A stretch of DNA of 64,000 bases from a virus, in the IMG/VR virus record IMGVR_UViG_3300032287_003317, positions 1-64,000 of that record. One strand, given 5' to 3'. Below the pieces are notes generated by a model, which was not told the origin of the DNA, ran no database searches, and saw nothing but the letters and a program-made list of their open reading frames with translations. A program made the translations under genes and the position numbers. This document shows, one piece after another, positions 33,078-51,579 of this stretch; position 1 is the first letter of the stretch, and every line of letters starts with the position of its first letter.

Positions 33078-33107
33078 TACTGAGCTAAAACTCTTAAATA
33101 TTACACT

Positions 33108-35004: not shown

Positions 35005-35010
35005 ACAACT

Positions 35011-36257: not shown

Positions 36258-36321
36258 CTTATGTAGATGCCCGGGTGGGGTCTACATTAAAGTCATACTT
36301 GCTTAATTAAGGAGAAAACAA

Positions 36322-36774: not shown

Positions 36775-36792
36775 GTAATAGGTGTGTATAAT
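36764..36792 (+). promoter_or_regulatory. sigma70-type promoter of clpS
   Basis: TTGCAA (36764-36769), 17-base spacer, TATAAT (36787-36792), inside and just after the end of hsp20. Confidence 0.6.
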
Positions 36793-36820
36793 AAGGGGAA
36801 GGCAACTTATTCCCCTTATT
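36790..36820 (+). promoter_or_regulatory. 11-bp perfect hairpin in the clpS leader
   Basis: AATAAGGGGAA (36790-36800) pairs with TTCCCCTTATT (36810-36820), 9-base loop. It lies just upstream of ATG 36829 and contains the only purine-rich ribosome-site-like segment (AAGGGGAA). It might work as a terminator for hsp20 transcripts or a translation switch for clpS. Confidence 0.6.
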
Positions 36821-36828
36821 AAAATATC

Positions 36829-37158: not shown

Positions 37159-37634
37159 TATTCAATCACATTCGTAAACTCAAAGACGATGGCAAGAAGA
37201 TTGGTATTACCTTCAGCACCTTCGACATGTTACACGCTGGACACATTGCCATGTTGGCCGAAGCAAAGAATCATTGCGACTACTTGATCGCTGGCTTACA
37301 AACAGATCCAACTATTGATCGACCTGACACCAAGAATAAACCTGTACAAAGTATAGTGGAACGTCAAATACAATTGGCCGCTTGCCGTTATGTGGACGAA
37401 GTGGTGGTTTATCAAACAGAACAAGACCTAGTTGACCTGTTGTTAATCCTTCCATTGGATATCCGAGTACTTGGTGTTGAATACCAAGACAAAGAGTATA
37501 CCGGTAAGTACGAGGGTCAACGCCGTGACATTCAGCCAATATTTAACGGTCGTGACCATTCATTTTCCAGTTCGGGACTACGCAGTCGTGTGGTGGAAGC
37601 CGAAAGCATGAAATTATTGACAAAAAAATCTTAA
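37155..37634 (+). CDS. Cytidylyltransferase-like protein (glycerol-3-phosphate cytidylyltransferase type)
   Basis: 159 residues. GITFSTFDMLHAGHIAMLAEAK contains the HxGH nucleotidyltransferase motif (HAGH), and FSSSGLRSRVVEAE is a variant of the ISTSxI/R signature. Size fits TagD-type CDP-glycerol synthases or related small-molecule cytidylyltransferases. It could feed head-group or surface-polymer synthesis, in line with the lipid genes at 47-53 kb. Substrate uncertain. Confidence 0.8.
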   Translation: MIFNHIRKLKDDGKKIGITFSTFDMLHAGHIAMLAEAKNHCDYLIAGLQTDPTIDRPDTKNKPVQSIVERQIQLAACRYVDEVVVYQTEQDLVDLLLILPLDIRVLGVEYQDKEYTGKYEGQRRDIQPIFNGRDHSFSSSGLRSRVVEAESMKLLTKKS

Positions 37635-37645
37635 TGTAGTATAAT
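37617..37645 (+). promoter_or_regulatory. sigma70 consensus promoter, leaderless
   Basis: TTGACA (37617-37622), 17-base spacer, TATAAT (37640-37645): both hexamers perfect. ATG 37652 is 7 bases after the -10 box, at the expected +1. The -35 lies in the end of the previous gene. Confidence 0.85.
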
Positions 37646-37651
37646 ACTAAC

Positions 37652-38209
37652 ATGGACATAATGTTAGATTTGGAATCACTAGGAACACGCCCAGACTGTG
37701 CTATTCTCACCCTGGGTGCTGTCAAGTTCGATCCTTACACTCCCGATAGTTTTAGCGACAGCCTATACTTACGCATAGACGTGGATGAACAGCTTGCCCT
37801 GGGTCGAGAAGTGCAACAAGATACACTGGCCTGGTGGTCAAATCAAGCAGAAGACGTCCGCGAGGAAGCCTTGGGCGAAGGCAACCGTGTTAGCCTGGAA
37901 TCAATGTATCGACAATTAAATAAATTTACAGTTGGTGTTGATGCCATCTGGTGTCAAGGCCCTGCGTTTGACATTGTTATCCTAGAAAACATTTACCGTC
38001 AGATGGGTTGGCCCACTCCTTGGCAGTTCTGGCAAATACGTGATAGCCGTACCTTGTTTCAAGTACACGGTGATCCTAGAGAAAAAGGCAAAGCAGGCCT
38101 ACACAATGCCTTAGAAGATTGCGTCAGCCAAGCACAGGGTGTGCAAGCAATATACCACTCATTGAAACTAGAAAAGCGTACCTACGCACGAGCAATGGAA
38201 CAAGCATAA
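37652..38209 (+). CDS. 3'-5' exonuclease, DEDDh type
   Basis: 185 residues. MLDLESLGTRPDCAILTLGA (D-x-E motif I), GPAFDIVILENIY (motif II Asp), and LHNALEDCVSQAQ (H-x(4)-D motif III) make a complete DEDDh active site, similar to Rv2179c-like exonucleases found in phages. It may degrade RNA or single-stranded DNA. Expressed from a consensus promoter with AUG at +1. Confidence 0.85.
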   Translation: MDIMLDLESLGTRPDCAILTLGAVKFDPYTPDSFSDSLYLRIDVDEQLALGREVQQDTLAWWSNQAEDVREEALGEGNRVSLESMYRQLNKFTVGVDAIWCQGPAFDIVILENIYRQMGWPTPWQFWQIRDSRTLFQVHGDPREKGKAGLHNALEDCVSQAQGVQAIYHSLKLEKRTYARAMEQA

Positions 38210-38514
38210 TGCAAATCATTTGGAATCGAGCGGCAGCAGAAAGTTTACGCACCAATCAAACTGTGCTAGAATTAGAAACATTTCCAGTTGGAGATCAAAC
38301 CATCACAGCATATTGTGTGGTGCCAGCTGAACGAGTATTTCCCGATATCGCACGTCTAGAAAATCTTAAAGAATTACACCAGGCATTTATAACAGCATTC
38401 AACAACAAAAATTATCAACTATGTCAGGACCTGGCACCAAATCTTGTTGGCGCTTTTGCTGGCGAACTGGATAGCTTTTATCAAGCCATACTAGATAAAA
38501 TTTCATCCCTGTAA
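38209..38514 (+). CDS. Unknown small protein
   Basis: 101 residues from ATG 38209 overlapping the exonuclease stop by 1 base (TAATG). Sequence IIWNRAAAESLRTNQTVLELETF then a helical C-terminus. No family recognised; translationally coupled to the exonuclease. Confidence 0.6.
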   Translation: MQIIWNRAAAESLRTNQTVLELETFPVGDQTITAYCVVPAERVFPDIARLENLKELHQAFITAFNNKNYQLCQDLAPNLVGAFAGELDSFYQAILDKISSL

Positions 38515-38534
38515 TTTTTCTACTTAAAACAAAA

Positions 38535-39701
38535 ATGACACAGTTGCATACGGATTCTTACGAAAATGGTTATTACCAAGTTGGTAATAAACTGTATGCA
38601 AACAAAATGCAAGCACTATATGATGCTACACAAACTAAACAAGATGTATCATGGCACTTCAACGATGACACTTATAAAAAAATAGATTGGACTAAACCTC
38701 CGAAAGAATCTTTGCTGGAATTGTATCGCCAGCGGGCACAGCAAATCAGAGACGAATACGACTATATTGTTCTCAGTTTCAGTGGCGGCGCCGACAGCCA
38801 TAATATACTACAAACATTTTTAAAAAACAACATAAAGTTAGACGAAATTTATACTAAATTTCCGTTACGTGCAGAGAGAAAATGGGTAGAAGCCAACACA
38901 CAAGATCTTGATGAACAGAATGTTGATAGTGAATGGGAATTTGCTGCCAGGCCCATGTTGGAGTATGTTGAAAAACACCACCCTGATATAAAAATTAGTT
39001 TTGATGATTCGTCGGACAGTTATGAACAATCAATCATACCTGAAAGTAGATTTCAAGCAGACACAGCCAATCATTATCAGGCCATTAGAACTTATACCAC
39101 GTGGAATAGAACCACAGACTCCATAGAACAACAAATGCGTTTAAATAAACGGATTGCGTTTGTGCAAGGACACGACAAAATACAGGTTATAAAAGTTGAT
39201 GAAAAATATCATGCTCATTTTGTAGATCGTGCAGCCGAAGAAACAATACCCGGCAGACACAATGAATGGTTTTACTGGACTAAAAAATTTCCACTGTTGC
39301 CTGTAGCCCAGGCACATCATGTGATGAATTTGTTTAAAGTAATAGATAATTTTAAAAATAATCCCGATAAAAAAACAAAACACTATAAAATATTGCAGAA
39401 AATGTTAAAACAACGCATTTTAGATATTAGGTTGCCAACGAATATAAAATATAGAGAATTTTATAGAGACGCTTGCTATCCGTATTGGGACGATAACACA
39501 TTTCAGGCAGGTAAAGTGCTGGGTCCAATGGTTGTCAAAAGTGAATATTGGGTAAAAAAACATAATCCTCAACTGTACGACTCTTGGGTCTGGGGCACAA
39601 ACCAATGGATAAACAACATTGATCAAAAGTATTTAAAAATCAAAGACAATGTCATTGTTGGCGCAGAAATAATGCATTCTTGTTTGTATTCTTTAGAGTA
39701 A
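38535..39701 (+). CDS. PP-loop ATPase-like protein (asparagine synthase/PAPS-reductase type)
   Basis: 388 residues. YIVLSFSGGADSHNIL gives an SGGxDS PP-loop at residues 83-88, as in ATP-pyrophosphatases that adenylate a substrate (asparagine synthase, QueC, PAPS reductase, TilS). The rest (WYWTKKFPLLPVAQAHHVMNLF) is rich in Lys and aromatics. Such proteins recur in T4-like aquatic phages near surface-modification genes, but the substrate is not known. Local AT content appears higher than in neighbouring genes. Confidence 0.7.
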   Translation: MTQLHTDSYENGYYQVGNKLYANKMQALYDATQTKQDVSWHFNDDTYKKIDWTKPPKESLLELYRQRAQQIRDEYDYIVLSFSGGADSHNILQTFLKNNIKLDEIYTKFPLRAERKWVEANTQDLDEQNVDSEWEFAARPMLEYVEKHHPDIKISFDDSSDSYEQSIIPESRFQADTANHYQAIRTYTTWNRTTDSIEQQMRLNKRIAFVQGHDKIQVIKVDEKYHAHFVDRAAEETIPGRHNEWFYWTKKFPLLPVAQAHHVMNLFKVIDNFKNNPDKKTKHYKILQKMLKQRILDIRLPTNIKYREFYRDACYPYWDDNTFQAGKVLGPMVVKSEYWVKKHNPQLYDSWVWGTNQWINNIDQKYLKIKDNVIVGAEIMHSCLYSLE

Positions 39702-39760
39702 ATTAAAACCACCACTTAATTTGTGCTAGATCCTGTTAAATACTAATAGGAGCTAGAGTC

Positions 39761-39788
39761 TTGACGATTCTACTGCCGATAATAATAA
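39761..39788 (+). promoter_or_regulatory. Possible sigma70-type promoter of the curli-like locus
   Basis: TTGACG (39761-39766) and TAATAA (39783-39788), 16-base spacer, followed by AAAAGAGGTAGCAGT and ATG 39806. A TTAAATA late-like motif lies upstream at 39736-39742. Confidence 0.45.
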
Positions 39789-39805
39789 TAAAAAGAGGTA
39801 GCAGT

Positions 39806-40285
39806 ATGCGTATGTTTAACCAGGTTATTCTAACCTTAATCGCTGTGTGGTCGACCACTATCTACGGCGCCCCTTTCAATGATTACAGTTTTAAAAGCCC
39901 AAGTTTCAATGGTTCAGGTTACAGTAGTCACGTCCTTACTATCGAAAATCAAGAGTTTTCACGCAGAGCACAGGTGGCCAAAGACATCCAAGCAGCCATT
40001 GACAAGGCCAAAGCCGATAAACAAAATACCAACATACAAAAGTTTTTAAACAACTTAGAGTCGCGTATCTACGCTCAGATCAGTCAAAACTTGGCCACTG
40101 CCATGTTTGCCAACAACAACTGTAGTGGCAGCAACAGCGTGGGTTGTTCAGGTACTTTGAACTTTGAGGGCAATACTATTTTCTGGAGCAAAGACAGTAG
40201 CAACATTTATCTGCAGGTCACAGACACAGTGGGCAACCAAACCACAATTACAGTACCGCTGGGTACATTTCAGTTTGGAAGTTAA
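39806..40285 (+). CDS. csgF: CsgF-like curli assembly factor
   Basis: 159 residues from ATG 39806 (AGAGG upstream). Signal peptide (about 1-21, ending STTIYGA), then a CsgF-type mature start: FNDYSFKSPSFNGSGYSSH (compare the NPNFGGNP.NG motif that plugs into CsgG), followed by VLTIENQEFSRR. The C-terminal half has NNNCSGSNSVGCSG (two Cys) and a beta-rich end. In bacteria CsgF binds the CsgG pore and anchors the nucleator. It abuts csgG with no gap, which strongly supports the call. Confidence 0.8.
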   Translation: MRMFNQVILTLIAVWSTTIYGAPFNDYSFKSPSFNGSGYSSHVLTIENQEFSRRAQVAKDIQAAIDKAKADKQNTNIQKFLNNLESRIYAQISQNLATAMFANNNCSGSNSVGCSGTLNFEGNTIFWSKDSSNIYLQVTDTVGNQTTITVPLGTFQFGS

Positions 40286-41620
40286 ATGCGTACATTATTC
40301 ACCTTACTCTTTGTCGCTATCTTAACTGGTTGTGCTGCCACGCAAAAAACTAGCATCACTGAATATCGTCCTGAACCCACGCCCAACAAAATGCAAAAAG
40401 AGTTTGATACATTACCACCACCCAATGGCAAGAAAGTCACAGCGGCAGTTTACAGTTTTGCTGATAAAACTGGTCAGCGTAAACCTACCCCGGGCATAGC
40501 CAGCTTGAGCTCGGCAGTGACCCAAGGTGCCGAAGTGTTCCTGATCAAGGCCTTACAAGACGTGGGTCGTGGTGAGTGGTTTGATGTAGTAGAACGTGTG
40601 GGCATAGATAGCTTGACCAAAGAACGTACCATCATACGACAAATGCGTGAAGCTTACGAGGGACCTGGTGCCAAGCCCTTGATGCCCCTACAATTTGCCG
40701 GCATCATCATGGAAGGTGGTATCATTGGCTATGACTCCAGCTCAGAGTCTGGTGGTGCCGCTTATAGATTTTTGGGCATTGGCCCACAGACACAGTATAG
40801 CAAAGATACTGTAACTATTAGTCTACGAGCCGTGAGTGTAAACACCGGCAAGGTCTTGGCCGCCGTGAGTGTGACCAAGATAGTTTACAGCACATCAGAT
40901 AGTGTGGCTGTGCTAAAGTTTATTGAAAATAAAAATATTGCTAGTCAAGTTTTTGGTAGTGCCAGCAACGCACTTAGCCCGACTGCCAGTATGTTTGAAT
41001 TTGAAACTGGATTAACAATTAACGAGCCTGGCACTTTGGCAGTCAAAGCCACAGTGGAAGCTGCCGTGGTTGAATTGATCAAAGAAGGTGAACGCAAAGG
41101 CGTTTGGAGCTTTAAGCGAGAGGAAACACGAAATGATGTCAAACCTGTTACAACAGTTACACCGCCTACGCCAGTCGCAGAACAACCAGCCAAAAAACCA
41201 GAGCCAGGGCCAGTCGCAGTCGCAGAAACCAAAGCACCAGTCCAAGCCCCTGTAACGTCACAACCGGAAGCAAAACCAGCACCAGCTCCTACCAGTCTGG
41301 AACGCCGTCCTGGGGAAAATCTAGCTGACAGCGTGAAACGAGTACAGTCCGAAGTAAAAACAAAAGAACCAGTGGCCAATCGAGTTTGGTTACGAGAAAC
41401 AGAATACATTTATAAAGAAACACGAGAAACCAGCCAAAGAACTTGGCAATTTCTTCGTGGTACAGAATTAACAGTAGTTGCTATCGAAGGTGAGTGGCTA
41501 CGGGTTAAGGATCATCAAGGTAGGGGTGGTTATGTTTTACAAAAAGTAGTATCAGCAACACCGTTGGTTGTTGGGGTCAACGAACCAAAGGTCAAGAGTG
41601 GTAAAGTAGAGACCAAATAA
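40286..41620 (+). CDS. csgG: CsgG-like outer-membrane secretion channel with C-terminal SH3-like domain
   Basis: 444 residues. Lipoprotein signal with lipobox LTGC (Cys at 16). The CsgG domain (about 20-275) is clear: KKVTAAVYSFADKTGQRKP, QGAEVFLIKALQDVG..EWFDVVERVGIDSLTKERTIIRQ, IIMEGGIIGYDSSSESGGAAYRFLGIG and VSVNTGKVLAAVSVTKIVYS. After it come a Pro/Ala linker (about 285-345) and an SH3b-like domain (LRGTELTVVAIEGEWLRVKD...GGYVLQK). E. coli CsgG ends after the first domain, so the SH3 extension is unusual; it may bind peptidoglycan. Forms the pore through which curlin subunits leave. Confidence 0.9.
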   Translation: MRTLFTLLFVAILTGCAATQKTSITEYRPEPTPNKMQKEFDTLPPPNGKKVTAAVYSFADKTGQRKPTPGIASLSSAVTQGAEVFLIKALQDVGRGEWFDVVERVGIDSLTKERTIIRQMREAYEGPGAKPLMPLQFAGIIMEGGIIGYDSSSESGGAAYRFLGIGPQTQYSKDTVTISLRAVSVNTGKVLAAVSVTKIVYSTSDSVAVLKFIENKNIASQVFGSASNALSPTASMFEFETGLTINEPGTLAVKATVEAAVVELIKEGERKGVWSFKREETRNDVKPVTTVTPPTPVAEQPAKKPEPGPVAVAETKAPVQAPVTSQPEAKPAPAPTSLERRPGENLADSVKRVQSEVKTKEPVANRVWLRETEYIYKETRETSQRTWQFLRGTELTVVAIEGEWLRVKDHQGRGGYVLQKVVSATPLVVGVNEPKVKSGKVETK

Positions 41621-41641
41621 GGTCAAAAAGGAAGAAGTATT

Positions 41642-42433
41642 ATGAAACACAAACTAGCGACAAAAGTAACAACAATCCTGCTAGGTATTGTGATGAGTGT
41701 GAGTGTGCATGCTGTGGATAACAGTATCTACATTGATCAAACAGGTGACAACGCCACCATTTCTATTACACAAGACGGAACAGGCAACGTGGTACGCGGC
41801 ATACAAGGCACAGGAACCAGCAACACTACCCCATCCGGCATCTATGGTGACGGTAACGAAGTGACGGTGAATCAGGTTGGTAGTAGTAATACCTTGAGTT
41901 TAGGAATCAATCGTGGCACAGGCACAGGAACCACTGGTAACACGGTGAATTATAGTGTCACGGGTAACAACGCCGCAGGTATTATTAATTTAAATAATGC
42001 CAATGACAGCACAGCCGCAGGTAATACTGTGAATATCACACAGTCGGGTAACAATGCTTCCGCTAATCTTAACATCAAAGGCGACGACAACTCAGTGACT
42101 GTAAACACCGCAGGTGGTAGTAACAATGTGTTTACTGGCGTTGTTGAAGGCAACACCAATACACAAAACATCAGCCTAACTGGTGGCGGTGGCAATGGTG
42201 CTACAGTTACACAAACTGGTAACAGTAACAGCGCCACAATCACAGCCGTGGGGGCCAGTAACTCATTTACTGTAAGTCAAGCTGATGGCGGACATACCGC
42301 AAGTATAACACAGACTGGTAGTAGTAATACTTTTACTGTGACACAGTCTGGTGGTGTTGCGGCTAATGTGTTTAATTTTACCAGTAGCAGTGGAAATGGA
42401 AATAGCGTAACTATAAACCAAACTGCTAGATAA
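41642..42433 (+). CDS. Secreted curlin-repeat protein (CsgA/CsgB-like)
   Basis: 263 residues: signal peptide (about 1-24, VHA cleavage) followed by about ten curlin-like repeats. Examples are IYIDQTGDNATISITQDGTGN, NTVNITQSGNNASANL, GATVTQTGNSNSATI and HTASITQTGSSNTFTVTQSGG (consensus I-x-Q-x-G-x-x-N-x-A/S). This is the amyloid-forming pattern of CsgA/CsgB, so the protein is probably the fibre subunit or nucleator exported by the CsgG channel just upstream. AAAGGAAGAAGT gives a good ribosome site. Confidence 0.85.
   Translation: MKHKLATKVTTILLGIVMSVSVHAVDNSIYIDQTGDNATISITQDGTGNVVRGIQGTGTSNTTPSGIYGDGNEVTVNQVGSSNTLSLGINRGTGTGTTGNTVNYSVTGNNAAGIINLNNANDSTAAGNTVNITQSGNNASANLNIKGDDNSVTVNTAGGSNNVFTGVVEGNTNTQNISLTGGGGNGATVTQTGNSNSATITAVGASNSFTVSQADGGHTASITQTGSSNTFTVTQSGGVAANVFNFTSSSGNGNSVTINQTAR
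41700..42430 (+). repeat. Curlin-type repeats (first array)
   Basis: Tandem units of about 22-30 codons with I-x-Q-x-G-x-x-N-x-A/S core. Confidence 0.8.
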
Positions 42434-42443
42434 GCGATTATAA

Positions 42444-43562
42444 ATGTATAAGGGGAACAAATTATGCAACCTGACACTATGCGTACTCTTGCTGAGTACA
42501 TCCATGAACTTAGAAGCCGCGATTGGTACCATAACGGAGCAAGTGAACAGCCCGCCTTCGATACAACGACAGAAGACGACGCTCACTGGGACCAAGGGAA
42601 CTCGAGTGGAGATGCAGGACGCGGTAAAAACCACAGCGGGTAAAGTTGGCATAACTTTTGCCGATGATACCAAAGTACAGGTCAATGAAAACAGCAGGTT
42701 GGTCATTGACGATTTTGTATACGATCCCAAGTCAACCAAAGGCGGCAAGTTAGCAGTCAATGTGGCCGCAGGAACAGTGAGATATGCGTCAGGACAGATC
42801 GCTAAAAACAGTCCTCAAAATGTTGCCCTTAATACTCCTACCGCTACTGTTGGTGTACGCGGTACAGACTTTACTGCTACAGTAGACGAGCTGGGTGCAT
42901 CAACTATAATCTTGTTGCCCAGTTGTCCACGTGGTTGGGTCAATGTGGAACGTGATTGTAAAACTGGAGAAATATCAGTCAGCAACGATGCTGGTAGTGT
43001 AATATTAAATAAACCATTTCAAGCCACCAAGATAGAAACACGCTCAAGTTTCCCCACACGTCCGGTCATAGTCAATCTCTCCCCTGATGCCATCAACAAC
43101 ATGTTGATTGTGGCACCGCCCAAAGAACTCAATGAAGTTCAAACTACACAACGAGCCGTTGCTAAAGGAGCCTTGGATGTAGATTTTTTACGTGAAAATG
43201 GCTTGGTCAACATGTTGACAGCCGAAGAAACACATTTTAAAGATTTTCTTAGTACCAGTTTGCTAGATCAGAATCTCTTAGCCAATATCTTAGATATCAT
43301 CAACGCACAGATGGCTGCTCAATTGGATTTTTTAAACACAGCTAAAAGTGGATTGTTACCGGACTATGTGGCCACCACGGGTGTTGTAGCATCAGTGGAT
43401 GACTACTCAGTGAACTTGACCAGAGACGATGGAAGCAATGTACAAAGTGTGACTGTGCCTAAAAATCAAAACACCACAATTTATCAGATACAAGGCAGCA
43501 TAGAAATCCGGAACCGCGTGAATTCAGGCGGCGGTACTACAATAACGCTAAGGCAGAATTAA
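42444..43562 (+). CDS. FecR-domain secreted protein
   Basis: 372 residues. Signal peptide (LTLCVLLLSTSMNLEAA), then IGTITEQVN, GTRVEMQDAVKTTAGKVGITFADDTKVQVNENSRLVIDDFVYDP, GGKLAVNVAAGTVRYASGQIAK and TPTATVGVRGTDFTATV: a FecR domain as found beside curli-like genes in Proteobacteria. The C-terminal half is helical then beta-rich. A good ribosome site (AAGGGG, about 42451) precedes ATG 42464 in another frame rather than ATG 42444, so the start is a little uncertain. It could anchor the fibre or cap it. Confidence 0.82.
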   Translation: MYKGNKLCNLTLCVLLLSTSMNLEAAIGTITEQVNSPPSIQRQKTTLTGTKGTRVEMQDAVKTTAGKVGITFADDTKVQVNENSRLVIDDFVYDPKSTKGGKLAVNVAAGTVRYASGQIAKNSPQNVALNTPTATVGVRGTDFTATVDELGASTIILLPSCPRGWVNVERDCKTGEISVSNDAGSVILNKPFQATKIETRSSFPTRPVIVNLSPDAINNMLIVAPPKELNEVQTTQRAVAKGALDVDFLRENGLVNMLTAEETHFKDFLSTSLLDQNLLANILDIINAQMAAQLDFLNTAKSGLLPDYVATTGVVASVDDYSVNLTRDDGSNVQSVTVPKNQNTTIYQIQGSIEIRNRVNSGGGTTITLRQN

Positions 43563-45004
43563 TGAAAAGATTAGTGGCGTACCTGTTGATAATTTTTGCT
43601 GTGGCCTTGTTAGAGCTGGCCTGTTTGGGTCTGGTAAAAGCACAAACAACGTCTAATGCTATCAAAATGGCCTATAACTTTGTAACGGTCAGTCAGACTG
43701 TGGTTTTCGATAGTGCCATGCAGACCGGTGGAACACTAACTCTTTCTGTGCAGGCAATGGATGGTGGTGGTCGTGCTCCGGGCGATCCGTTTACCATAAG
43801 ACTGGTTTTTTATAATAGCAGCAACCAAATCGTTAACACAGTACAGCAGGCCAACACCTTGGTCTATGGTGCCACTACTCCCACGACATATACACTAACA
43901 GCTACCAACTGCGGTGGAAGCTGTGCCTCAGTTGCTTATGTTAACGTAGAGTTCTATGGTAAAGACGGCGGCTACTGGGCAGGTAACTATGGACCTTACA
44001 TCATTGATCCATCCTTGAGCTTTAACGGCGGATCAAATATTTTATATAACCCAGGGTTTGGAGTATACGGCACCAACGGATTTGCACAAGGTTGGGCCAG
44101 CAGCAACGGTTGGCAAAACTGTGCCCTGTACAGCGGAGCACAGACCTGTGTTATCAACAATGGAGCACCAGTCAATGGCGGCAACTACTCGGCCACAGGC
44201 GGTACCACCAGCGGGTCTGCTGGAGGATATAGTGCCCCACCACCGGCACCCACATACACAGCCAATATTACAACCGAACAACAATCCAGAGTCACAGCTT
44301 TTCAAAACAGATCAATCACCAACAACACCATCTACATAGATCAGGTGGGCGACAACAACACCTTAAACATTAGTCAGTCAGGTCGTGCCAACGAACTCAA
44401 GGGCATAGGGCAACAGGCTGTACAGATACAAGGCAGTAGTAATAGCATTACTGTACGCCAAGGCGATCAAGATACCGCGGGCAAAAACTCAATAGAACTG
44501 CGTGTGGTGGGCGACACAAATACCTTAAATCTAAATCAAAGCCGAACCACCACAGGAGCCGCTGTCAACAGTTCCAACAATCATTATCAACGTGTGGACG
44601 TGGACGGTTATTCAAACTCTGTGACCACGCAACAAACCAACACCGGCGGTGTGGGCGGACACTACATGGAAACCACCATCACTGGTAACACCAACATAGT
44701 GAATGCCACACAGACCAACAATGCCAACAAAACCATGTTCAACACAGTCTCCGGCAACAACAATACTGTGTCGGTGACGCAAAAAGATGGCGGACAACAC
44801 TATCTGGAAAGTACTCTAACTGGCAATGGCAATACCATAACAGCAGTACAAGAAGGAGCTGCCGCCAATCGTGCGTCGATCACAATCAATAACAATGGCG
44901 GTCCGGGGTCAGTAGATATGATACAATCGGGTGGAGCTGTATATAACATAACAACAACCTGTGTGACAGCAGGCGGATGCGGGGTAATAACCGTAAGACA
45001 ATAA
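43562..45004 (+). CDS. Two-domain secreted protein with C-terminal curlin repeats
   Basis: 480 residues. N-terminal signal peptide (MKRLVAYLLIIFAVALLELA..., ending KAQ), a beta-sandwich-like domain (about 33-150, TGGTLTLSVQAMDGGGRAP, IRLVFYNSSNQIV), a Gly/Ser/Asn-rich stretch, and a C-terminal array of curlin-like repeats from about 255 (IYIDQVGDNNTLNISQSGRAN, NTLNLNQSRTTTG, NTVSVTQKDGG). The sandwich could bind a ligand while the repeats join the amyloid fibre made from the 41642 product. Overlaps the FecR gene by 1 base (TAATG). Confidence 0.8.
   Translation: MKRLVAYLLIIFAVALLELACLGLVKAQTTSNAIKMAYNFVTVSQTVVFDSAMQTGGTLTLSVQAMDGGGRAPGDPFTIRLVFYNSSNQIVNTVQQANTLVYGATTPTTYTLTATNCGGSCASVAYVNVEFYGKDGGYWAGNYGPYIIDPSLSFNGGSNILYNPGFGVYGTNGFAQGWASSNGWQNCALYSGAQTCVINNGAPVNGGNYSATGGTTSGSAGGYSAPPPAPTYTANITTEQQSRVTAFQNRSITNNTIYIDQVGDNNTLNISQSGRANELKGIGQQAVQIQGSSNSITVRQGDQDTAGKNSIELRVVGDTNTLNLNQSRTTTGAAVNSSNNHYQRVDVDGYSNSVTTQQTNTGGVGGHYMETTITGNTNIVNATQTNNANKTMFNTVSGNNNTVSVTQKDGGQHYLESTLTGNGNTITAVQEGAAANRASITINNNGGPGSVDMIQSGGAVYNITTTCVTAGGCGVITVRQ
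44320..45000 (+). repeat. Curlin-type repeats (second array)
   Basis: Units like NTLNISQSG and NTVSVTQKDG, interspersed with longer spacers. Confidence 0.7.
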
Positions 45005-45016
45005 TGGAGACAATCA

Positions 45017-45208
45017 ATGATATCATTTACAGCAAGATATTTTCATCACGGTAGAAACGTGTTGGATGATGTGAGCCTGTACGTTCAACAGGCAGGCGGA
45101 TATTTTGAAACGCATCGCGGTTACGTGGTTGAATTTTTTGTACCCGAAGAATACAGAGATTTTGTTGTTATGAAATATCCATTTTTACGGGAGGTAGTCT
45201 ACATATGA
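45017..45208 (+). CDS. Small unknown protein
   Basis: 63 residues; no signal peptide (ISFTARYFHHGRNVLDDVSLY). Good ribosome site (AATGGAGACAATCA) and 4-base ATGA overlap with the next gene, so likely real. No family recognised; placed inside the curli-like locus. Confidence 0.55.
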   Translation: MISFTARYFHHGRNVLDDVSLYVQQAGGYFETHRGYVVEFFVPEEYRDFVVMKYPFLREVVYI

Positions 45209-45363
45209 TCACAGGAATCCCACCAGTATGCCAGGTACCAGGTTGTGAACACGGCGCACAAGTCTACAGCAAGGTAGGCGATAACACTCAATATCTCAAG
45301 ACCTGTTATCGACACTGGGCCGATCTAATACCACAAAACCGAGAACAAAAACCCAATAAATAA
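45205..45363 (+). CDS. Tiny Cys/His protein, possible zinc ribbon
   Basis: 52 residues: CQVPGCEHGAQ and LKTCYRHW give C-x4-C-x-H and C-x2-H spacing, suggesting a metal site. Preceded by GGGAGGTAGTCTAC, a strong ribosome site, and coupled to the upstream gene by a 4-base overlap. Function unknown. Confidence 0.55.
   Translation: MITGIPPVCQVPGCEHGAQVYSKVGDNTQYLKTCYRHWADLIPQNREQKPNK
45356..45362 (+). promoter_or_regulatory. T4-like late promoter core (ATAAATA)
   Basis: CAATAAATAA at the stop of the tiny protein, 94 bases before ATG 45456. Confidence 0.5.
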
Positions 45364-45420
45364 TTTTGTAAATTTGAGATTTACTGAACACCCAGTACGG
45401 GATCAATGATGTATGAGTAT

Positions 45421-45452
45421 CGAGATCAAGAAAAATAATAAAAAGGATCTCG
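45421..45452 (+). promoter_or_regulatory. Leader hairpin that could occlude the ribosome site of the 45456 gene
   Basis: CGAGATC (45421-45427) is perfectly complementary to GATCTCG (45446-45452), which starts in the AAAAAGGA ribosome site and ends 3 bases before the ATG. Pairing would hide the site. Confidence 0.5.
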
Positions 45453-45455
45453 AAA

Positions 45456-47489
45456 ATGAAGTTTTTCACAACAGCCCTAGCGGCTTTTGCAGCATGCCTG
45501 GCTTTTTCAGCACAGGCACAAACACAAGATTACAGTTTTGGCACCGGCAACCTCAACGGTTGGACCGCAGGTGGCGGAACAGGCACACAAACAGGCCCAT
45601 ACATGCAAAGCGGTATTGGTGTGAGCACTACCAGTGGAACACAAACTATTAGTTGCTGTGGTCCTAACACATGGAATATCAATCCATACACAGGCAGTTA
45701 CATGGTTGGCATGCAACCAGGCGGCCAACAAAACTATTCTGCAATGACTACCGCATTGGGTTTGAGCAGTTCAAGTATTAGTAGTTTAAATTCTTTAGTG
45801 GCATCACAGGGCGGCGGCATCACCAGTGCCGCTTGGATCAGCAAAGATTTCACATTTACTGCACCAGCCACATTTAAAATGGCCTGGGTATATACCAGCA
45901 CAGACTATGTGCCGTTTAACGATGGCAGTATTGCCACTTTGGTCAACACAGGGTCAGCCGACACATTTGGTAAGGTCAATAATGTACTGGGACAGTACGC
46001 CCTATTGGGTGCTACCAACCCCAACACAGGCAACTACTCAACTGGCAGTTATGGCTCAACCGGTTGGCAGTTGGCACAGTTTGACATCTTAACAGCCGGC
46101 ACATACAAAGTGGGCTTTGGTGTATTCAACCAAGGTGATACTGCACTGAGTCCAGTGCTACAGGTCAATGATGCAATTGGTACAGTGACAAAAAATGGCG
46201 AAACATTTGGTGCTGTTGCACCCAATCCAGGTAGTGTTGCACCCGCAGTGGATCCAACTCCTCCACCTTCGGCTCCAACAGTGACCAGCACAACAACAGT
46301 CGACTCGGTTACCACAACAACCACAACCGGGACCGCCGCAGTTACCAACAGTATTGCTTACGGTACAGCGGCAGCGGCCTTGGCCATTGACAATGCAAGA
46401 GGTGCTCAAACTGCCAAGACATTGACAGTCACACAAACAAAAACAACCACTGTAACAACACCATTTACAGTTACACAAACAACCACAACTCCTGTGACTG
46501 TCACAACAACCACAACTCCTGTGACTACCACAACTTACAGCGATGGCACTCAAACAGTGACAAATGGAACTCCTGTAGTTACTGTGAGCACAACCGACTC
46601 TGTCAGTTCTAATAGTGCATCGGGCAATGAAATCAGTCAGGCAATTCAAACCAATGACTATTCAACTCGCGTGGATCAATACAGTCAGTTGAGCAACGTG
46701 AATCAGGCAATGAACTACATGTTAGACAGCAATGTGTTAGATCGCAATCGTGTGCTGGGTGGTGACTTCAATGTATCAGAACGCAACACCTTTTATGTGA
46801 CAGGCAGCGCCGGCCAATCAAACTCTGTAGGCGGTTACTCGTACAAGAGCATGACATACGGCCTGGGTTACGACTGGCAAGTCGCTCCAAACTGGATCAT
46901 CGGCGGTCAATACAATCGTGGTCAGGCTAACCTAAATGGTGCCGCAGGCACAAATGCAGGTGGTAGTTTAAACAAAGACCACGTAGGCATTTATAGTGCT
47001 TACACAGTCAATGACTGGATCTTTAAAAACGACATTGGTTATGCTGCCAACACATTTGATACCAATCACAGTTTACCTGAACTGGGCATGGCAAATACAA
47101 GTTCAACCAAGGGTCAAGACTTGTGGGCAACTGCTCGTGTTTACACACCAGAGTGGAATGACATACGTCCCTTTGTTGGTGTGCGTAACGAAACCAATCG
47201 TCGCAACGGGGTCGCAGAATCTGGTAGTAGTTTAACTGCTATGACATATGACGCAGTCAACACAAACAAGACCAGCACAGACATTGGTGTACGTTATGAC
47301 GCCACGGTTGCTACAGCATGGCGTGTAACAGGTGAGTATGCTTACAACAGTCAAAACTTTAACACAGCCTACGCCAGTGTTGGATATGCAATTGATCCAA
47401 AGAGTGTTGTGCGCCTACGTTATGGTTATGGCAAACAATATGATTACACAGTACAAAGTGCTATGATAGAGGCTCGTTTTAGTTTTTAA
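45456..47489 (+). CDS. Autotransporter-like outer-membrane beta-barrel protein
   Basis: 677 residues: signal peptide (MKFFTTALAAFAACLAFSAQA), an N-terminal domain (about 25-250, Gly/Thr/Ser-rich beta), a Thr/Val low-complexity stalk (TTTTTTGTAAVTNS, VTVTTTTTPVTTTTYSDG), and a C-terminal barrel of about 270 residues. Barrel strands include FYVTGSAGQS, MTYGLGYDWQVAPNWIIGGQYNRG and YAYNSQNF. The last residue is Phe (MIEARFSF), the standard outer-membrane barrel signature. It would place an adhesin domain on the cell surface. Downstream of the curlin genes, it may anchor or display the fibre. Confidence 0.8.
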   Translation: MKFFTTALAAFAACLAFSAQAQTQDYSFGTGNLNGWTAGGGTGTQTGPYMQSGIGVSTTSGTQTISCCGPNTWNINPYTGSYMVGMQPGGQQNYSAMTTALGLSSSSISSLNSLVASQGGGITSAAWISKDFTFTAPATFKMAWVYTSTDYVPFNDGSIATLVNTGSADTFGKVNNVLGQYALLGATNPNTGNYSTGSYGSTGWQLAQFDILTAGTYKVGFGVFNQGDTALSPVLQVNDAIGTVTKNGETFGAVAPNPGSVAPAVDPTPPPSAPTVTSTTTVDSVTTTTTTGTAAVTNSIAYGTAAAALAIDNARGAQTAKTLTVTQTKTTTVTTPFTVTQTTTTPVTVTTTTTPVTTTTYSDGTQTVTNGTPVVTVSTTDSVSSNSASGNEISQAIQTNDYSTRVDQYSQLSNVNQAMNYMLDSNVLDRNRVLGGDFNVSERNTFYVTGSAGQSNSVGGYSYKSMTYGLGYDWQVAPNWIIGGQYNRGQANLNGAAGTNAGGSLNKDHVGIYSAYTVNDWIFKNDIGYAANTFDTNHSLPELGMANTSSTKGQDLWATARVYTPEWNDIRPFVGVRNETNRRNGVAESGSSLTAMTYDAVNTNKTSTDIGVRYDATVATAWRVTGEYAYNSQNFNTAYASVGYAIDPKSVVRLRYGYGKQYDYTVQSAMIEARFSF

Positions 47490-47504
47490 CACAACCGTAA
47501 TATT

Positions 47505-47525
47505 CTAAGACTTAAATAATCTTAG
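47505..47525 (+). other. Small inverted repeat after the autotransporter-like gene
   Basis: CTAAGA (47505-47510) / TCTTAG (47520-47525), no T-run, so a weak terminator at best. A second one, ACTGG/CCAGT, follows around 47547-47565. Confidence 0.4.
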
Positions 47526-47572
47526 CGGACACAAAGATGGGGTGTCACTGGAACCCGTAACCAGTAACAATT

Positions 47573-47590
47573 CTGTAATATTTCTGCAAC
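47573..47590 (+). promoter_or_regulatory. Pho-box-like direct repeat upstream of the plcP-like gene
   Basis: CTGTAAT (47573-47579), 4-base spacer ATTT, CTGCAAC (47584-47590). It matches the PhoB pattern CTGTMAY-N4-CTGTMAY with one mismatch. Ten bases later comes ATAAAT(A), where a -10 box of a PhoB-dependent promoter is expected. Confidence 0.45.
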
Positions 47591-47600
47591 ACCTTGAGCG

Positions 47601-47607
47601 ATAAATA
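47601..47607 (+). promoter_or_regulatory. T4-like late promoter core or -10 box (ATAAATA)
   Basis: GATAAATATGG overlaps the first ATG (47607) of the plcP-like gene. If transcription starts about 47612, the second Met codon (47613) would be at +1. Confidence 0.5.
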
Positions 47608-48404
47608 TGGTTATGACAGCCAAAACTTATCGCTCAATTTTTATTTCCGACATACACTTTGGCACCAGAGATTGCAAAGCCGAACAACTCAACAACTTTC
47701 TCAAACACAACACCTGTGAAACACTTTATCTAGTGGGCGACATCATTGACGCCTGGAAGATTCAACAAAACAAGTGGCGATGGAAACAAAGCCACACCAA
47801 TGCAATCAGAAGAATCCTAGGACACGCCAAACGTGGCACTCGAGTGATCTATGTGGCCGGCAACCACGACGAGTTTCTGAGACCACTCATACCTTATGGC
47901 ATGGGATTTGGACGTGTTGAAATAACAAATCAAACAGAACACATTGGGGCGGATGGCAAAACATATTTGGTCACCCACGGAGACCTGTTTGATGGAATCA
48001 CACGTTTGGCCCCTTGGCTGAGTTTCCTGGGCGATAAACTGTACGACCTGGTATTAGATTGGAACAGCAGATTTAATTGGATCAGACACAAGTTGGGATT
48101 TGGCTACTGGAGTTTAAGCAAGTATCTCAAACACCGTGTCAAAAAAGCCGCAGACTTTATGTTTCAGTTTGAAACCAATCTAGCTACATATTGTAAGAAA
48201 CGTGGCTTTGATGGTGTGATCTGTGGACACATACATCACGCAGAAATAAAGATGATAGATGGCATTGTGTATATGAATGATGGCGACTGGGTCGAATCAA
48301 TGACTGCTCTGGTTGAGCATCACTCGGGTAGGTGGGAAATAGTAACTTGGACAAAGGCACATGACAATGTGGATACTGATACTACTGGCAGTTCACACGA
48401 ATAA
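47607..48404 (+). CDS. plcP: PlcP-like phospholipase C (calcineurin-type metallophosphoesterase)
   Basis: 265 residues (or 263 from ATG 47613). The dinuclear metal motifs are complete: SDIHFGTRDC, YLVGDIIDAW, VAGNHDEFLR, VTHGDLFDG and ICGHIHHAEIK. The sequence pattern (ETLYLVGDIID, GYWSLSKYLK, GVICGHIHH, NDGDWVESMTALVEH) is that of the family containing Sinorhizobium PlcP, often mis-annotated as LpxH. PlcP cleaves phosphatidylethanolamine/choline head groups during phosphate starvation, leaving diacylglycerol. The Agt-like gene follows after 117 bases, the usual bacterial partner. A phage copy could free phosphate for DNA synthesis. No signal peptide: cytoplasmic face. Confidence 0.85.
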   Translation: MVMTAKTYRSIFISDIHFGTRDCKAEQLNNFLKHNTCETLYLVGDIIDAWKIQQNKWRWKQSHTNAIRRILGHAKRGTRVIYVAGNHDEFLRPLIPYGMGFGRVEITNQTEHIGADGKTYLVTHGDLFDGITRLAPWLSFLGDKLYDLVLDWNSRFNWIRHKLGFGYWSLSKYLKHRVKKAADFMFQFETNLATYCKKRGFDGVICGHIHHAEIKMIDGIVYMNDGDWVESMTALVEHHSGRWEIVTWTKAHDNVDTDTTGSSHE

Positions 48405-48540
48405 TCCGCAAGACATACCAGGACGAATAACGATCGAATTCGCTACCGAATCCGAATGTTTGCGAGCTCAAAGCACCGTACAATATTGGCTTAAATTTGA
48501 TAATTTTAAGATAAGTACACGATGTCAAAAACAATCTTGA
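48361..48540 (+). CDS. Small exported protein between plcP and agt
   Basis: 59 residues starting inside the plcP-like gene and ending in the agt-like gene, in a different frame from both. A hydrophobic N-terminus (MTMWILILLAVHTNN), a folded-looking middle (IEFATESECLRAQSTVQYW) and a second Cys near the end (STRCQKQ) resemble small secreted two-cysteine phage proteins. It fills an otherwise empty gap. Could be a chance ORF; support is by pattern only. Confidence 0.45.
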   Translation: MTMWILILLAVHTNNPQDIPGRITIEFATESECLRAQSTVQYWLKFDNFKISTRCQKQS

Positions 48541-49517
48541 TCATAACAGACAATGTCCCAGATCAAATCAACGGCGTGGTCACAACTTTCAAAAACTTGG
48601 AAGATCATGCTAGGCGTGACGGGTATAGTGTTGTTTATCTTGATCCCGGGCAGTTCCCTAATTTTGCTTGCCCTGGTTATCCTGAAGTTCGCTTGTGCTG
48701 GCCGCACGGTATCAGTAAGAAAATTAAAGCGATACAGCCAGATTATATACACATCGCTACAGAAGGGCCTGTAGGCTTTTTTGCTCGTTGGTGGTGTGAA
48801 CGTAACAGTATTCCTTACAATACCAGCTATCACACAGACTTTCCCAAGTTCTTAAAAACAATGTATCATGTGCCTAAAAGTTTAACTTACTGGTATTTGC
48901 GTTGGTTCCACAAAAACAGTCATCGTGTGCTGGTCACAACAAAGACCATAGAAGCGGATTTAAAATCACACGGATTTGGACGCATGGTTATCTGGACTCG
49001 GGGTGTACGCAGAGATATCAAGCCCACAGCGGAATGGTGTGATGATCGTTCTAAGCCAATGGTTCTCAATGTGGGTCGGGTCAGTGCTGAAAAAGGTCTG
49101 ATAGATTTAATTCCTTTACAAGATGCGTACACACTAGTTATAGTAGGCGACGGACCGTACATGTCTGAAGCACGTCGGTTGCTACCTTCTGCTAAGTTTG
49201 TGGGCTACAAACAAGGACAGGAGCTGGTTGATTATTACAATCAAGCTGATGTGTTTGTGTTTCCCAGCCGAGCAGACACCTTTGGTCTAGTGATGATTGA
49301 AGCCATGGCACAAGGTACTCCTGTAGCAGCCTTTCCTGTACAAGGTCCCGTAGACATCATTGAAAATGGCATAAACGGCTATATGGACAACGACCTAGAG
49401 GTAGCAGTTGAAAAGTGTTTAAAACTAAGCGGTCGCGTGGTTAAACAGTCCAGTCAACGTTGGACCTGGGATGAATGCTGGCGTATTTTCAAAGACAATC
49501 TAGCAGTGATCAAGTAA
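48522..49517 (+). CDS. agt: Agt-like GT4 glycosyltransferase (diacylglycerol glycosyltransferase type)
   Basis: 331 residues. GT-B fold motifs: ITDNVPDQINGVVTTFKNLEDHA, YHIATEGP-like IHIATEGPVGFFARWWC, YNTSYHTDFPKF, VLNVGRVSAEKGLIDLI, VIVGDGPYMSEARRLLP, and VFVFPSRADTFGLVMIEAMAQGTP, which is the GT4 E-x7-E donor site. This is the Agt/MgtA group, which in Proteobacteria follows plcP and adds glucose or glucuronic acid to diacylglycerol, replacing phospholipids with glycolipids. The pair in a phage suggests phosphate scavenging or membrane remodelling of the infected cell. Confidence 0.85.
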   Translation: MSKTILIITDNVPDQINGVVTTFKNLEDHARRDGYSVVYLDPGQFPNFACPGYPEVRLCWPHGISKKIKAIQPDYIHIATEGPVGFFARWWCERNSIPYNTSYHTDFPKFLKTMYHVPKSLTYWYLRWFHKNSHRVLVTTKTIEADLKSHGFGRMVIWTRGVRRDIKPTAEWCDDRSKPMVLNVGRVSAEKGLIDLIPLQDAYTLVIVGDGPYMSEARRLLPSAKFVGYKQGQELVDYYNQADVFVFPSRADTFGLVMIEAMAQGTPVAAFPVQGPVDIIENGINGYMDNDLEVAVEKCLKLSGRVVKQSSQRWTWDECWRIFKDNLAVIK

Positions 49518-49523
49518 TAAATA
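49517..49523 (+). promoter_or_regulatory. T4-like late promoter core (ATAAATA), leaderless cyclase
   Basis: TAATAAATAC lies at the agt stop; ATG 49528 is 4 bases after the motif with no ribosome site. Confidence 0.5.
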
Positions 49524-49527
49524 CTTG

Positions 49528-51579
49528 ATGTTCAAAAAAATCTTAATCAGTCCTTGGACTGCTCTATTAACACTAGCAATCATTGTGGGCTTGCGTGTTG
49601 CAGATCCTATGTTTGTTGAAAGCGTAAGGCTACGCTATTTCGATACACTTGTTACTAGCCGACCTGCCGAAACGATCGGGGTCAGTGTAGTAAACATAGA
49701 TGAGAAAGCATTAGAACGATATGGGCAATTTCCTTTTTCCCGTGATACATACGGTGCCATTATTCGAGACCTTTACAGACGTAATGCTGGTCTTGTTGTG
49801 TTTAATATTCTTACTCCAGATAAAGACCGTATGGGGCAAGATACTGCGTATGTGCAAGCGTTAAAACAATACCCAACGGTACTTCCTAGCATTGGATCAA
49901 CAACGACAAGAAATCAACCACGAGCTCCAGGATCAGCAGTAATTGGACCATTTGGTTTAGATGCGTTTGTGACCTATCCGGGGCTTATCGCTAACATTCC
50001 CAGTGTAGAAACGGCCGCTGCCGGAGTTGGTGTTGTTAACACGTTTCCGGAAGTTGACGGTGTTGTGCGTCGTATGCCACTGGTAGTTGCTTACAACGGT
50101 CGATTGTATCCAAGCCTGGCCATGGAAGTCATGCGTGTGGCTGCAGGCGACTCAACCTTCCAAGTTAAAATCAATGAGCAGGGTGTTGAGAAAATGCGAA
50201 TTCCAGCATTTGGTCCTGTGACCACAGACAGCTTGAGTCGTATATGGATTGACTGGAGCTTGACACCAGAGCGTTATAGCCTAACCAACTTGCCCCGAGA
50301 CTTTGATGGTGAAATCGTTATTGTTGGTGTGTCGGCGCAAGGTCTAGCAAACCCTGTAGCCACAAGCCTGGGCGAAATGTTACCACAAGATTTACAGGCC
50401 GCAGTATTAGGCACAGTTATTGCCAACAAAGATCGTCCAGCAATATCAAGACCCGACTGGGCCGATGGTGCTGAGATCATTGCTATTGTGGTTTTAGGTA
50501 TCGTATTATTATTTTTAACGAGGTATGTATATGTTGGACTTGCTACTGGTGTTATCGCTCTTGGTATTTTGTATCCTGTATCTCAGTACGTTTACACGGC
50601 TAATGCTTGGCTATTTGACATTACTGCCCTTGCTGGCGGCCTCACTGTTATTCTCCTTCATGCTTACGGTGTTAAGTTTGTAAGTGAGTTCTTACAAAAA
50701 CAAGCAATCAAGAAACAGTTTGCTGGTTACTGTTCAAAAGAAGTTGTGGAGATGTTACAGAAAGATCCTGACTTGATCAAACGTGGTGTGCGTAAAGACG
50801 TAAGTGTTATGTTTAGTGACTTACGTGGCTTTACACCAATTGGCGAACACTATGGCGATGATGTAGGCGGATTAGGCAAATACATGAACGGTTACATGGA
50901 TGCTATTTCAAAACCTATCATGGACAACCGGGGTATGGTTATCAAGTATGTGGGTGATGCAAGTATGCACATTCATGGTGCGCCTATAGACGATCCTGAT
51001 CATGCTAGAACTATTGTCAAAGTAGGTTTAGAAATGTTAGACGCTGTAGATGCTTATACCAAAGAAATGGAAGCACAAGGCTTGCCGCCAGCTGCAATGG
51101 GCTGGGGCTGTAACACAGGTATTGGGTTCATTGGTGAGATGGGTTCAACCGACCGACACAGTTATGATATCTTGGGTGACATGGTTAGTACAGCCGCCCG
51201 ACTAGAAGCACGTTGTAAGGCTTACGGTGTGTTGGCCATTATCGGTGCTGAAACATACAACAGAACTAAAGATGATTTCTTCTACTTGCTGTTGGATAAC
51301 TTACAACCAAAAGGCAAGACAGTAGCAGACTTAATCTATACAGTATTACGTACTCGAGGTGAAGATTACAGCAAAGACAAGGAAGCACACGATGTAATGC
51401 ATGACCTGTACCGTCAGAAAAAATTCAATGAAGCGGCCGCCATGTGCAAAAAGTTAACAGGCAACTTTGGTGGACAAATGGACAAGTACTATAAGATATG
51501 GATTGAACGTTGCGACTTTATGAAGCAACAAGACCTACCAGCAAACTGGAATGGGGAATTCATAGCTCATGAGAAATAA
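49528..51579 (+). CDS. CHASE2-domain class III nucleotidyl cyclase
   Basis: 683 residues from ATG 49528 (a TTG at 49525 is possible). After an N-terminal span, a periplasmic CHASE2 sensor (about 25-300, IGVSVVNIDEKALERYGQFPF, RRNAGLVVFNILTPDKDR) is followed by three spans (about 310-385) and a class III cyclase domain. Metal Asp residues are present (FSDLRGFTP at about 431, YVGDASMHIHG at about 477), with K474 and the Asp of YDILGD for adenine choice, so the product should be cAMP. In GDMVSTAARLE the usual Asn is Ser (about 554), while the transition-state Arg (558) remains. Confidence 0.88.
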   Translation: MFKKILISPWTALLTLAIIVGLRVADPMFVESVRLRYFDTLVTSRPAETIGVSVVNIDEKALERYGQFPFSRDTYGAIIRDLYRRNAGLVVFNILTPDKDRMGQDTAYVQALKQYPTVLPSIGSTTTRNQPRAPGSAVIGPFGLDAFVTYPGLIANIPSVETAAAGVGVVNTFPEVDGVVRRMPLVVAYNGRLYPSLAMEVMRVAAGDSTFQVKINEQGVEKMRIPAFGPVTTDSLSRIWIDWSLTPERYSLTNLPRDFDGEIVIVGVSAQGLANPVATSLGEMLPQDLQAAVLGTVIANKDRPAISRPDWADGAEIIAIVVLGIVLLFLTRYVYVGLATGVIALGILYPVSQYVYTANAWLFDITALAGGLTVILLHAYGVKFVSEFLQKQAIKKQFAGYCSKEVVEMLQKDPDLIKRGVRKDVSVMFSDLRGFTPIGEHYGDDVGGLGKYMNGYMDAISKPIMDNRGMVIKYVGDASMHIHGAPIDDPDHARTIVKVGLEMLDAVDAYTKEMEAQGLPPAAMGWGCNTGIGFIGEMGSTDRHSYDILGDMVSTAARLEARCKAYGVLAIIGAETYNRTKDDFFYLLLDNLQPKGKTVADLIYTVLRTRGEDYSKDKEAHDVMHDLYRQKKFNEAAAMCKKLTGNFGGQMDKYYKIWIERCDFMKQQDLPANWNGEFIAHEK

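Follow-up and report, generated by a model that had tools for sequence, protein, structure and literature searches.

What use might a phage have for a curli secretion operon? We addressed this question for a 64,000-nucleotide stretch of viral DNA (the window), positions 1 to 64,000 of the 104,090-bp IMG/VR record IMGVR_UViG_3300032287_003317, which has no end repeats. A first-pass annotation made from the letters of the window had recognised csgF, csgG, two curlin-repeat proteins, a FecR-domain protein and a beta-barrel protein at 39761–47489, and all six were confirmed by Pfam, AlphaFold2 (AF2) and Foldseek. With moderate confidence, we read the locus as a phage-borne type VIII (curli) secretion operon that would display an adhesive fibre on the infected cell, most likely for the capture of new hosts.

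Curli operons on phages are known from publications since 2020 (PMC7029224, PMC9599517 and PMC9004378), and pelagiphage curli genes were detected in metatranscriptomes (PMC9599517). Their purpose has been open ever since, with pore, lysis, shield and sibling-capture ideas in parallel: PMC7029224 proposed the capture of siblings and the uptake of macromolecules, PMC9599517 defence against superinfection, aggregation and the import of cofactors, and PMC9004378 a pore that times lysis. PMC9636769 and PMC7003362 also mention csgGF or csgG on contigs of viruses. No paper on jumbo-phage curli was found, which is weak evidence as preprints and most subscription papers lay outside the search; autotransporter, PA14 and jumbo are mentioned neither in the main text of PMC9599517, which also lacks lectin and carbohydrate, nor in PMC9004378. 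What is added here is a modular second curlin, an autotransporter partner, an SH3-like tail on CsgG, a candidate late promoter, a Hyphomonas contig with five of the genes, and close capsid relatives that lack CsgG.

A curli-type gene block in phage DNA

The content first assigned to 39761–47489 was right and its end was set too early: nine plus-strand genes lie in series at 39761–51579, and the unit runs to the end of a CHASE2 cyclase gene. The series opens with csgF (39761–40285; Pfam CsgF, 40.4 bits), encoding the putative pore-associated nucleator, whose start is the TTG at 39761 or, more likely, the ATG at 39806, after which a signal-like N-terminus follows. csgG (40286–41620; Pfam CsgG, 143.2 bits against a cut-off of 20.8) encodes a predicted outer-membrane lipoprotein pore; residues 1–285 match the solved E. 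coli-type CsgG, and an SH3-like domain (375–423) lies at the C-terminus. There follow a curlin-repeat protein and candidate fibre subunit, curlin 1 (41642–42433; Curlin_rpt, 62.3 bits in three stretches), a FecR-domain protein (42444–43562; FecR, 38.3 bits) that aligns with its relatives, and a second curlin-repeat protein, curlin 2 (43562–45004). Genes from csgF to curlin 2 are 0–21 bases apart or overlap, and some 450 bases then separate curlin 2 from the gene of an autotransporter-type protein (45456–47489; Autotransporter, 54.0 bits). The last three genes encode a PlcP-like calcineurin-type metallophosphoesterase (47607–48404; Metallophos), a family 4 glycosyltransferase (GT4) considered Agt-like by its neighbourhood (48522–49517; Glycos_transf_1), and a CHASE2-containing class III nucleotide cyclase (49525–51579; CHASE2, 132.5 bits; Guanylate_cyc, 52.6 bits). 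Every Pfam assignment in the run exceeds its curated cut-off save those of curlin 2 and the SH3-like tail of CsgG. The curated NCBIfam CsgG, CsgA and CsgB models also match, the latter two both on curlin 1, all below their equivalog cut-offs, as expected of a distant curli variant. Judged by eye, all six proteins from CsgF to the autotransporter bear export-type N-termini.

The block is continuous with phage DNA. Two independent contigs span it colinearly, L006 with 97.5% identity over window 33049–51617 and L007, from a third metagenome, with 97.7% identity over 35091–51617; a chimera at the block, which the first-pass annotation had named as one result that would undo its claim, is therefore ruled out, and the gene order is kept in related phages. 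The 356,865-bp contig of L006 (G001) matches the window at 100% beyond the block up to 60400, bar one gap, and bears a T4-type gp23 major capsid gene (E 5e-99). About 866 additional bases were seen in G001 at window position ~53567. gp23 was not found in the window's own 104,090-bp record, which is a fragment carrying genes for a phage-type helicase, primase and ribonucleotide reductase as well as weak to moderate tail and head matches. Codon use in the block is ordinary for this phage: the distance between its six genes and the rest was 0.421 against a mean of 0.416 for random six-gene sets, and foreign codon use was rejected since 219 of 500 such sets lay at least as far.

The block also recurs in related phages. 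An IMG/VR scan with CsgG yielded 33 viral loci, and where enough sequence was available csgF was found in 33/33, a curlin gene adjacent to csgG in 27/27, FecR in 24/24, the second curlin in 22/22 and the cyclase in 14/16, the two misses (L008 and L017) being contigs that end about 530 bases or less past the glycosyltransferase gene. This order is kept across CsgG copies down to 40% identity, and in the isolates HTVC008M and Melnitz the same six genes follow one another as in the window. A recent single acquisition event was rejected on the many diverged copies.

Upstream of csgF lie genes for an Hsp20 chaperone and a ClpS protease adaptor (36322–37158), a cytidylyltransferase and an exoribonuclease, followed by a 388-aa open reading frame (ORF) without Pfam match. 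In many curli-bearing phage loci hsp20 and clpS likewise lie upstream of the block (27 ORF matches each), and a curli-less relative, G030, has them too. No histidine kinase was seen ahead of csgF, the ORF at 38119–38514 lying outside the scan; such a kinase is stated for the podoviruses in PMC9599517. On the other side, a radical SAM protein is encoded directly 3' of the cyclase gene (51765–52883), and in the locus gene maps its profile matched the window alone.

Conserved plug, retained curlins and exchangeable heads

Alignment of CsgF revealed that all 30 of 30 phage rows carry the motif F..P.F.G close to the mature N-terminus, and E. coli CsgF has it too. In the solved E. coli CsgG–CsgF complex, the CsgF N-terminal segment sits inside the CsgG barrel. 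Conservation of the putative plug motif speaks against the proposal, made in PMC9004378, that phage CsgF has left its plug role. A single-sequence search of solved structures with CsgF gave merely likely chance matches to other proteins. In CsgG the lipobox cysteine is invariant in all 14 aligned phage copies. The CsgG tail scored 23.6 bits for SH3_4, slightly below the cut-off of 24.1; among ten further CsgG proteins scanned, a C-terminal SH3 domain exceeded the Pfam cut-off in five (L009, L010, L015, L032 and L130), stayed sub-threshold in L021 and L022, and was not found in L020, L126 and L036. Since bacterial SH3 domains often bind the cell wall, the tail may anchor the pore.

Curlin 1 is enriched in the motif Q.G..N (4 copies; none of 2,000 shuffles reached 4). 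Curlin 2 is not (2 copies; reached in 150 of 2,000 shuffles), and it scored 19.8 bits for Curlin_rpt against a cut-off of 20.7; its assignment is backed by alignment with relatives and by a predicted run of short strand-turn-strand units. The structural model shows a beta-sandwich head at residues 44–154, of middling confidence (predicted local distance difference test, pLDDT, mostly 65–80), then a linker and, from about residue 255, a curlin-type tail of short strand pairs. Among ten of the available second curlins of relatives, PA14 was detected above cut-off in L030, L033 and L039 (HTVC008M) and an F5/8 type C domain in L021, and Pfam found no head domain in the remaining six; several loci have head-less second curlins. 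Curlin 2 is thus modular, a common curlin tail being joined to differing N-terminal heads. Both PA14 and F5/8C families include many sugar-binding members. Single-linkage clustering of the heads merged unlike ones and was not used. The C-terminus of the phage FecR proteins, including that encoded at 42444–43562, resembles a curlin repeat by eye (I.Q.QG...N.GG.T.I...Q), and FecR might join the fibre.

The autotransporter-type protein was modelled by AF2 as a passenger, a threonine-rich linker and a 12-strand barrel (pLDDT mostly 80–95) with a helix before it, the passenger being poorly modelled (pLDDT mostly under 60). Foldseek matched the barrel to EstA (2.4e-12) and NalP (4.7e-11; template-modelling (TM) score 0.77 by target), and phenylalanine is the last residue in 12 of 12 homologues. 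Homologues in L010 and L023 have a different passenger (27–28% overall identity). The autotransporter occurs in five of the 33 CsgG-found viral loci; a search with the protein gave 12 loci, with csgG in the fetched flank of eight, three of which were contigs already seen.

Timing was approached through the DNA 5' of csgF, where TAAATA was the commonest hexamer. It was found in 25 of 31 distinct stretches, whereas 500 Markov shuffles gave 6.2 on average and 13 at most; this count is no probability because the 31 stretches are related and not independent. In the window the hexamer lies at 39737–39742 on the plus strand, 24 bases 5' of the csgF TTG, and it also occurs 27–33 bases before other ORFs, among them tail-spike-like and minor-head-like genes. 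TATAAAT is used as the known T4-like late promoter in PMC9004378 on Melnitz, and TAAATA 5' of csgF may be the core of a candidate T4-type late promoter. A general promoter/terminator scan (39 sites against 28.1 expected) was not used.

The three remaining genes were compared with bacterial counterparts. Genes 45–52% identical to the phosphoesterase gene are present in seven of eight alphaproteobacterial genomes, with a GT4 homologue adjoining in four of the eight bacterial places, and the phosphoesterase–glycosyltransferase pair is present in 7 of 40 loci tabulated. Should the phage trade phospholipid for glycolipid, phosphate could be released for DNA or the envelope altered. In the cyclase, the two metal aspartates and the lysine are kept in 24/24 rows and the arginine in 23/23, and the asparagine is replaced by serine in 14 of 25 classified rows, the window included; we take these residues to have the usual class III roles, namely metal binding by the aspartates, adenine recognition by the lysine and a transition-state Asn–Arg pair. 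Catalytic activity of the serine type is uncertain. The two types require two changes on the cyclase tree and seven on the CsgG tree (both quick trees), so that cyclases seem to have been exchanged between operons while some cyclase was kept. The glycosyltransferase, phosphoesterase and cyclase genes of L025 and L037 are found on the opposite strand.

Capture, shielding, pore or virion

If the operon serves capture, its timing, fibre, ligand and benefit would be as follows. Transcription would be late, from the candidate T4-type late promoter; CsgG would reach the outer membrane as a lipoprotein and form a pore, and the CsgF N-terminus would plug into it and nucleate. Curlin 1 and curlin 2 would be exported and, to judge from homology, assemble on the surface of the infected cell as an amyloid fibre. 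Curlin 2 would act as decorator, its tail joining the fibre and its variable head being displayed as a ligand-binding, probably glycan-binding, adhesin, and the autotransporter would put a further head on display. As parts inherited with the operon, the FecR protein and the CHASE2 cyclase would serve as envelope-side partner and cyclic-nucleotide output. Infected cell and lysis debris would adhere to nearby cells or to matrix, bringing progeny into contact with new hosts; after capture, the next best use would be a shield from rival phages.

A more ambitious version of this proposal, tentative and less probable than capture itself, is that the operon builds a programmable adhesive organelle on the dying host, combining an amyloid fibre, exchangeable glycan-binding heads on its second subunit (PA14, F5/8C or CBM-like), a further exchangeable head on the autotransporter and a peptidoglycan-anchored, SH3-tailed CsgG. 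If so, head swapping would follow the surface sugars of target cells, and the operon would capture the next host or coat the cell with a chosen specificity; it would be a host-range-linked public surface device and no general biofilm gene.

Where the fibre would be displayed can be judged from the proteins themselves. The first-pass annotation had proposed that the infected cell could coat itself with amyloid, with curlin-like virion proteins as the alternative, and the cell coat stands up better. A place in the virion for the curlin-repeat and autotransporter proteins, as fibres or decoration, could be argued from their location on a phage genome and from beta-rich modular heads that recall the habits of tail fibres. 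Virion proteins would, however, need no export N-termini or lipoprotein cysteine, and here such N-termini occur on all six proteins, CsgG is a lipoprotein with its cysteine invariant, and an outer-membrane barrel is encoded; moreover, PHROGs had no match for either curlin or the autotransporter and placed CsgF, CsgG, FecR and the cyclase in families of unknown function, leaving the block without a structural family. We regard virion parts as very improbable. The same holds for non-functional cargo, recently acquired or mis-binned: the absence of CsgG from close capsid relatives, detailed below, would fit it, but the colinear independent contigs, intact frames, phage-like codon use and an order kept to 40% CsgG identity all contradict it.

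A pore without a fibre has been proposed in PMC7029224 and PMC9004378; CsgG and CsgF would then be an uptake channel or a lysis-timing pore, pinholin- or secretin-like, with the curlins as passengers, and the missing periplasmic cap CsgE fits such a role. A displayed adhesive fibre is favoured over a bare pore because the curlins are always retained where testable (27/27 and 22/22), the CsgF plug motif is conserved, contrary to the published view of a diverged phage CsgF, and the heads of curlin 2 and the autotransporter are swapped, sugar-binding-type heads being among them (one in the cultivated HTVC008M). The Melnitz paper (PMC9004378) says that csgA and csgB are lacking, yet the GenBank record annotates two curlin-associated repeat proteins. 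The bare pore thus appears unlikely, and the proteins are directly testable. Harder to set aside, although we consider it doubtful, is an anti-superinfection coat in which fibres and heads hide the infected cell's receptors and so keep rival phages from adsorbing, an idea put forward for pelagiphage curli in PMC9599517. It gains from G030, whose operon slot holds a D-Ala carboxypeptidase and two ORFs with export-like N-termini, as would be expected of an envelope-modifying region; against it, shielding would call for early or middle genes, and the candidate promoter seems to be a late one. Capture and spread would go well with late timing, and the evidence as a whole does not separate capture from shielding.

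Several observations weigh against capture by a late-expressed adhesive fibre. Melnitz, with the same core genes, produced no clumping in cytograms or transmission electron microscopy (PMC9004378); its cultures may lack the ligand of the heads. CsgE and CsgC, reported missing by the first-pass annotation, were indeed not matched by their profiles in nine phage records (the 104,090-bp record and eight relatives, which may be fragments) or in the Hyphomonas genome described below, and the E. coli positive control was detected; CsgE is called non-essential in PMC7029224, and alphaproteobacterial modules without CsgC, CsgD and CsgE are described in PMC9599517. The curlin 2 head of the window matched no Pfam domain, and Foldseek gave no match at E 0.001 (best 1.7e-3); its weak matches to sugar-binding beta-sandwiches, with sugar-binding F-box domains on top and CBM4, CBM16, CBM22 and the EclA sugar-binding domain lower, speak for a glycan-binding head. 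Pfam Autotransporter had no match in the homologues of L010, a curli locus, and L134, and csgG was not in the fetched flank of four of the 12 autotransporter loci, two of which had less than 2.5 kb upstream. As for the promoter, exact TATAAATA was not enriched in the window (5 against 3.3 expected; 24 of 100 shuffles had as many) and was not found before the window's csgF; in HTVC008M just five bases separate the end of the octamer from the annotated csgF start. TAAATA preceded merely 9 of 78 capsid genes, making these upstream regions unfit as a positive control for late promoters; the capsid gene is probably preceded by others in its transcript.

CsgG was also not found in any of the 22 nearest-capsid contigs of at least 25 kb (up to 374 kb) among 80 contigs in the matches listed. 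Because of this absence the operon is accessory and dispensable; more distant gp23-bearing records (G002–G004) do carry it. In the curli-less G030 (374 kb) the neighbouring genes on either side are conserved, and the slot itself holds 6.3 kb of unrelated genes against 16.0 kb in the window. Among the genes in this slot (L239, G030:209000–228000) are those of a D-Ala-D-Ala carboxypeptidase and of an 824-aa protein that has an export-like N-terminus and matched nothing in Pfam.

Origin and comparison with known systems

The search for a donor, suggested by the first-pass annotation, was partly answered by a quick CsgG tree of 82 rows with midpoint root, for which 40 genome loci were chosen by a hand-made list. 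Of 42 phage-labelled rows, 41 group with a Hyphomonas locus (L051) and seven contigs of metagenome-assembled genomes (MAGs), with an SH-like approximate likelihood ratio test (SH-aLRT) value of 93, below the 95 mark, and a long branch (1.58) to L051. The excepted row, L040 (OR851715.1, labelled 'Salmonella phage', 1,499 bp), clusters with the csgG of E. coli and is on that ground probably host DNA. The seven MAG contigs are 3–36 kb long; gp23 was found in four of six bins checked (those of L043, L047, L097 and L105) but in neither the L045 nor the L050 bin, and L065 shares its named bin with L043. L051 (Hyphomonas sp. TMED17, NHBW01000006.1) sits on a contig of 705 kb, surrounded by bacterial genes for metabolism and transport, and has the order csgF–csgG–curlin–FecR–cyclase. 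It is a counter-example to the statement, in PMC9599517, that FecR and the cyclase do not occur within bacterial type VIII secretion operons, and it suggests that the two belong to an older cellular curli variant and are not phage additions. The phages may have taken the five-gene set from such a bacterium, or Hyphomonas may have taken it from a phage; the direction is undecided because the cellular operon is rare in the family, FecR being found in 2 of 105 genomes, TMED17 itself and one weak match (7.6e-6). The CHASE2 cyclase failed as a donor tracer, as matches at E ≤ 1e-80 occur in 120 of the 385 genomes of the class.

Likeness to known systems differs from part to part. With type V autotransporters (EstA, NalP and EspP) the window protein shares the 12-strand C-terminal barrel, the preceding helix and the terminal phenylalanine, whereas its passenger belongs to no known family (NF038132, of PEP-CTERM type, 22.7 against a 90-bit cut-off). 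The gene pair at 47607–49517 is presumably like the bacterial PlcP–Agt pair of phosphate-starvation lipid remodelling: a phosphoesterase gene adjoins a GT4 gene as in the similar alphaproteobacterial pair, and the activities are predicted from sequence. No phage-encoded PlcP–Agt pair was found in literature titles and abstract openings. The E. coli csgBAC–csgDEFG system has in common with the window CsgG over its length, the CsgF N-terminal motif and the curlin repeats; it differs by having CsgE and CsgC and by its YPASNF constriction loop, replaced in the window CsgG (KPTPGIASLS) and lacking from the alphaproteobacterial rows too.

Alphaproteobacterial operons, for example those of Sphingomonas and Erythrobacter, share csgF–csgG–curlin, with best CsgG matches 38–48% identical among the 80 genome loci kept; in contrast, FecR lies beside curli in only six of these and the cyclase in five, all but L051 being short phage-looking contigs, and a profile built from the phage rows found no autotransporter homologue in any of the 80. 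The closest known systems are HTVC008M (NC_020484) and Melnitz (MZ577097), with which the window shares the order csgF–csgG–curlin–FecR–curlin–CHASE2 cyclase and a CsgG in one group. The window differs from them in its T4-type jumbo-phage lineage, in a CsgG of 444 aa with an SH3-like tail against 278–280 aa, in the autotransporter, PlcP-like and GT4 genes inserted between curlin 2 and the cyclase, and in a curlin 2 head of a type other than the PA14 head of HTVC008M.

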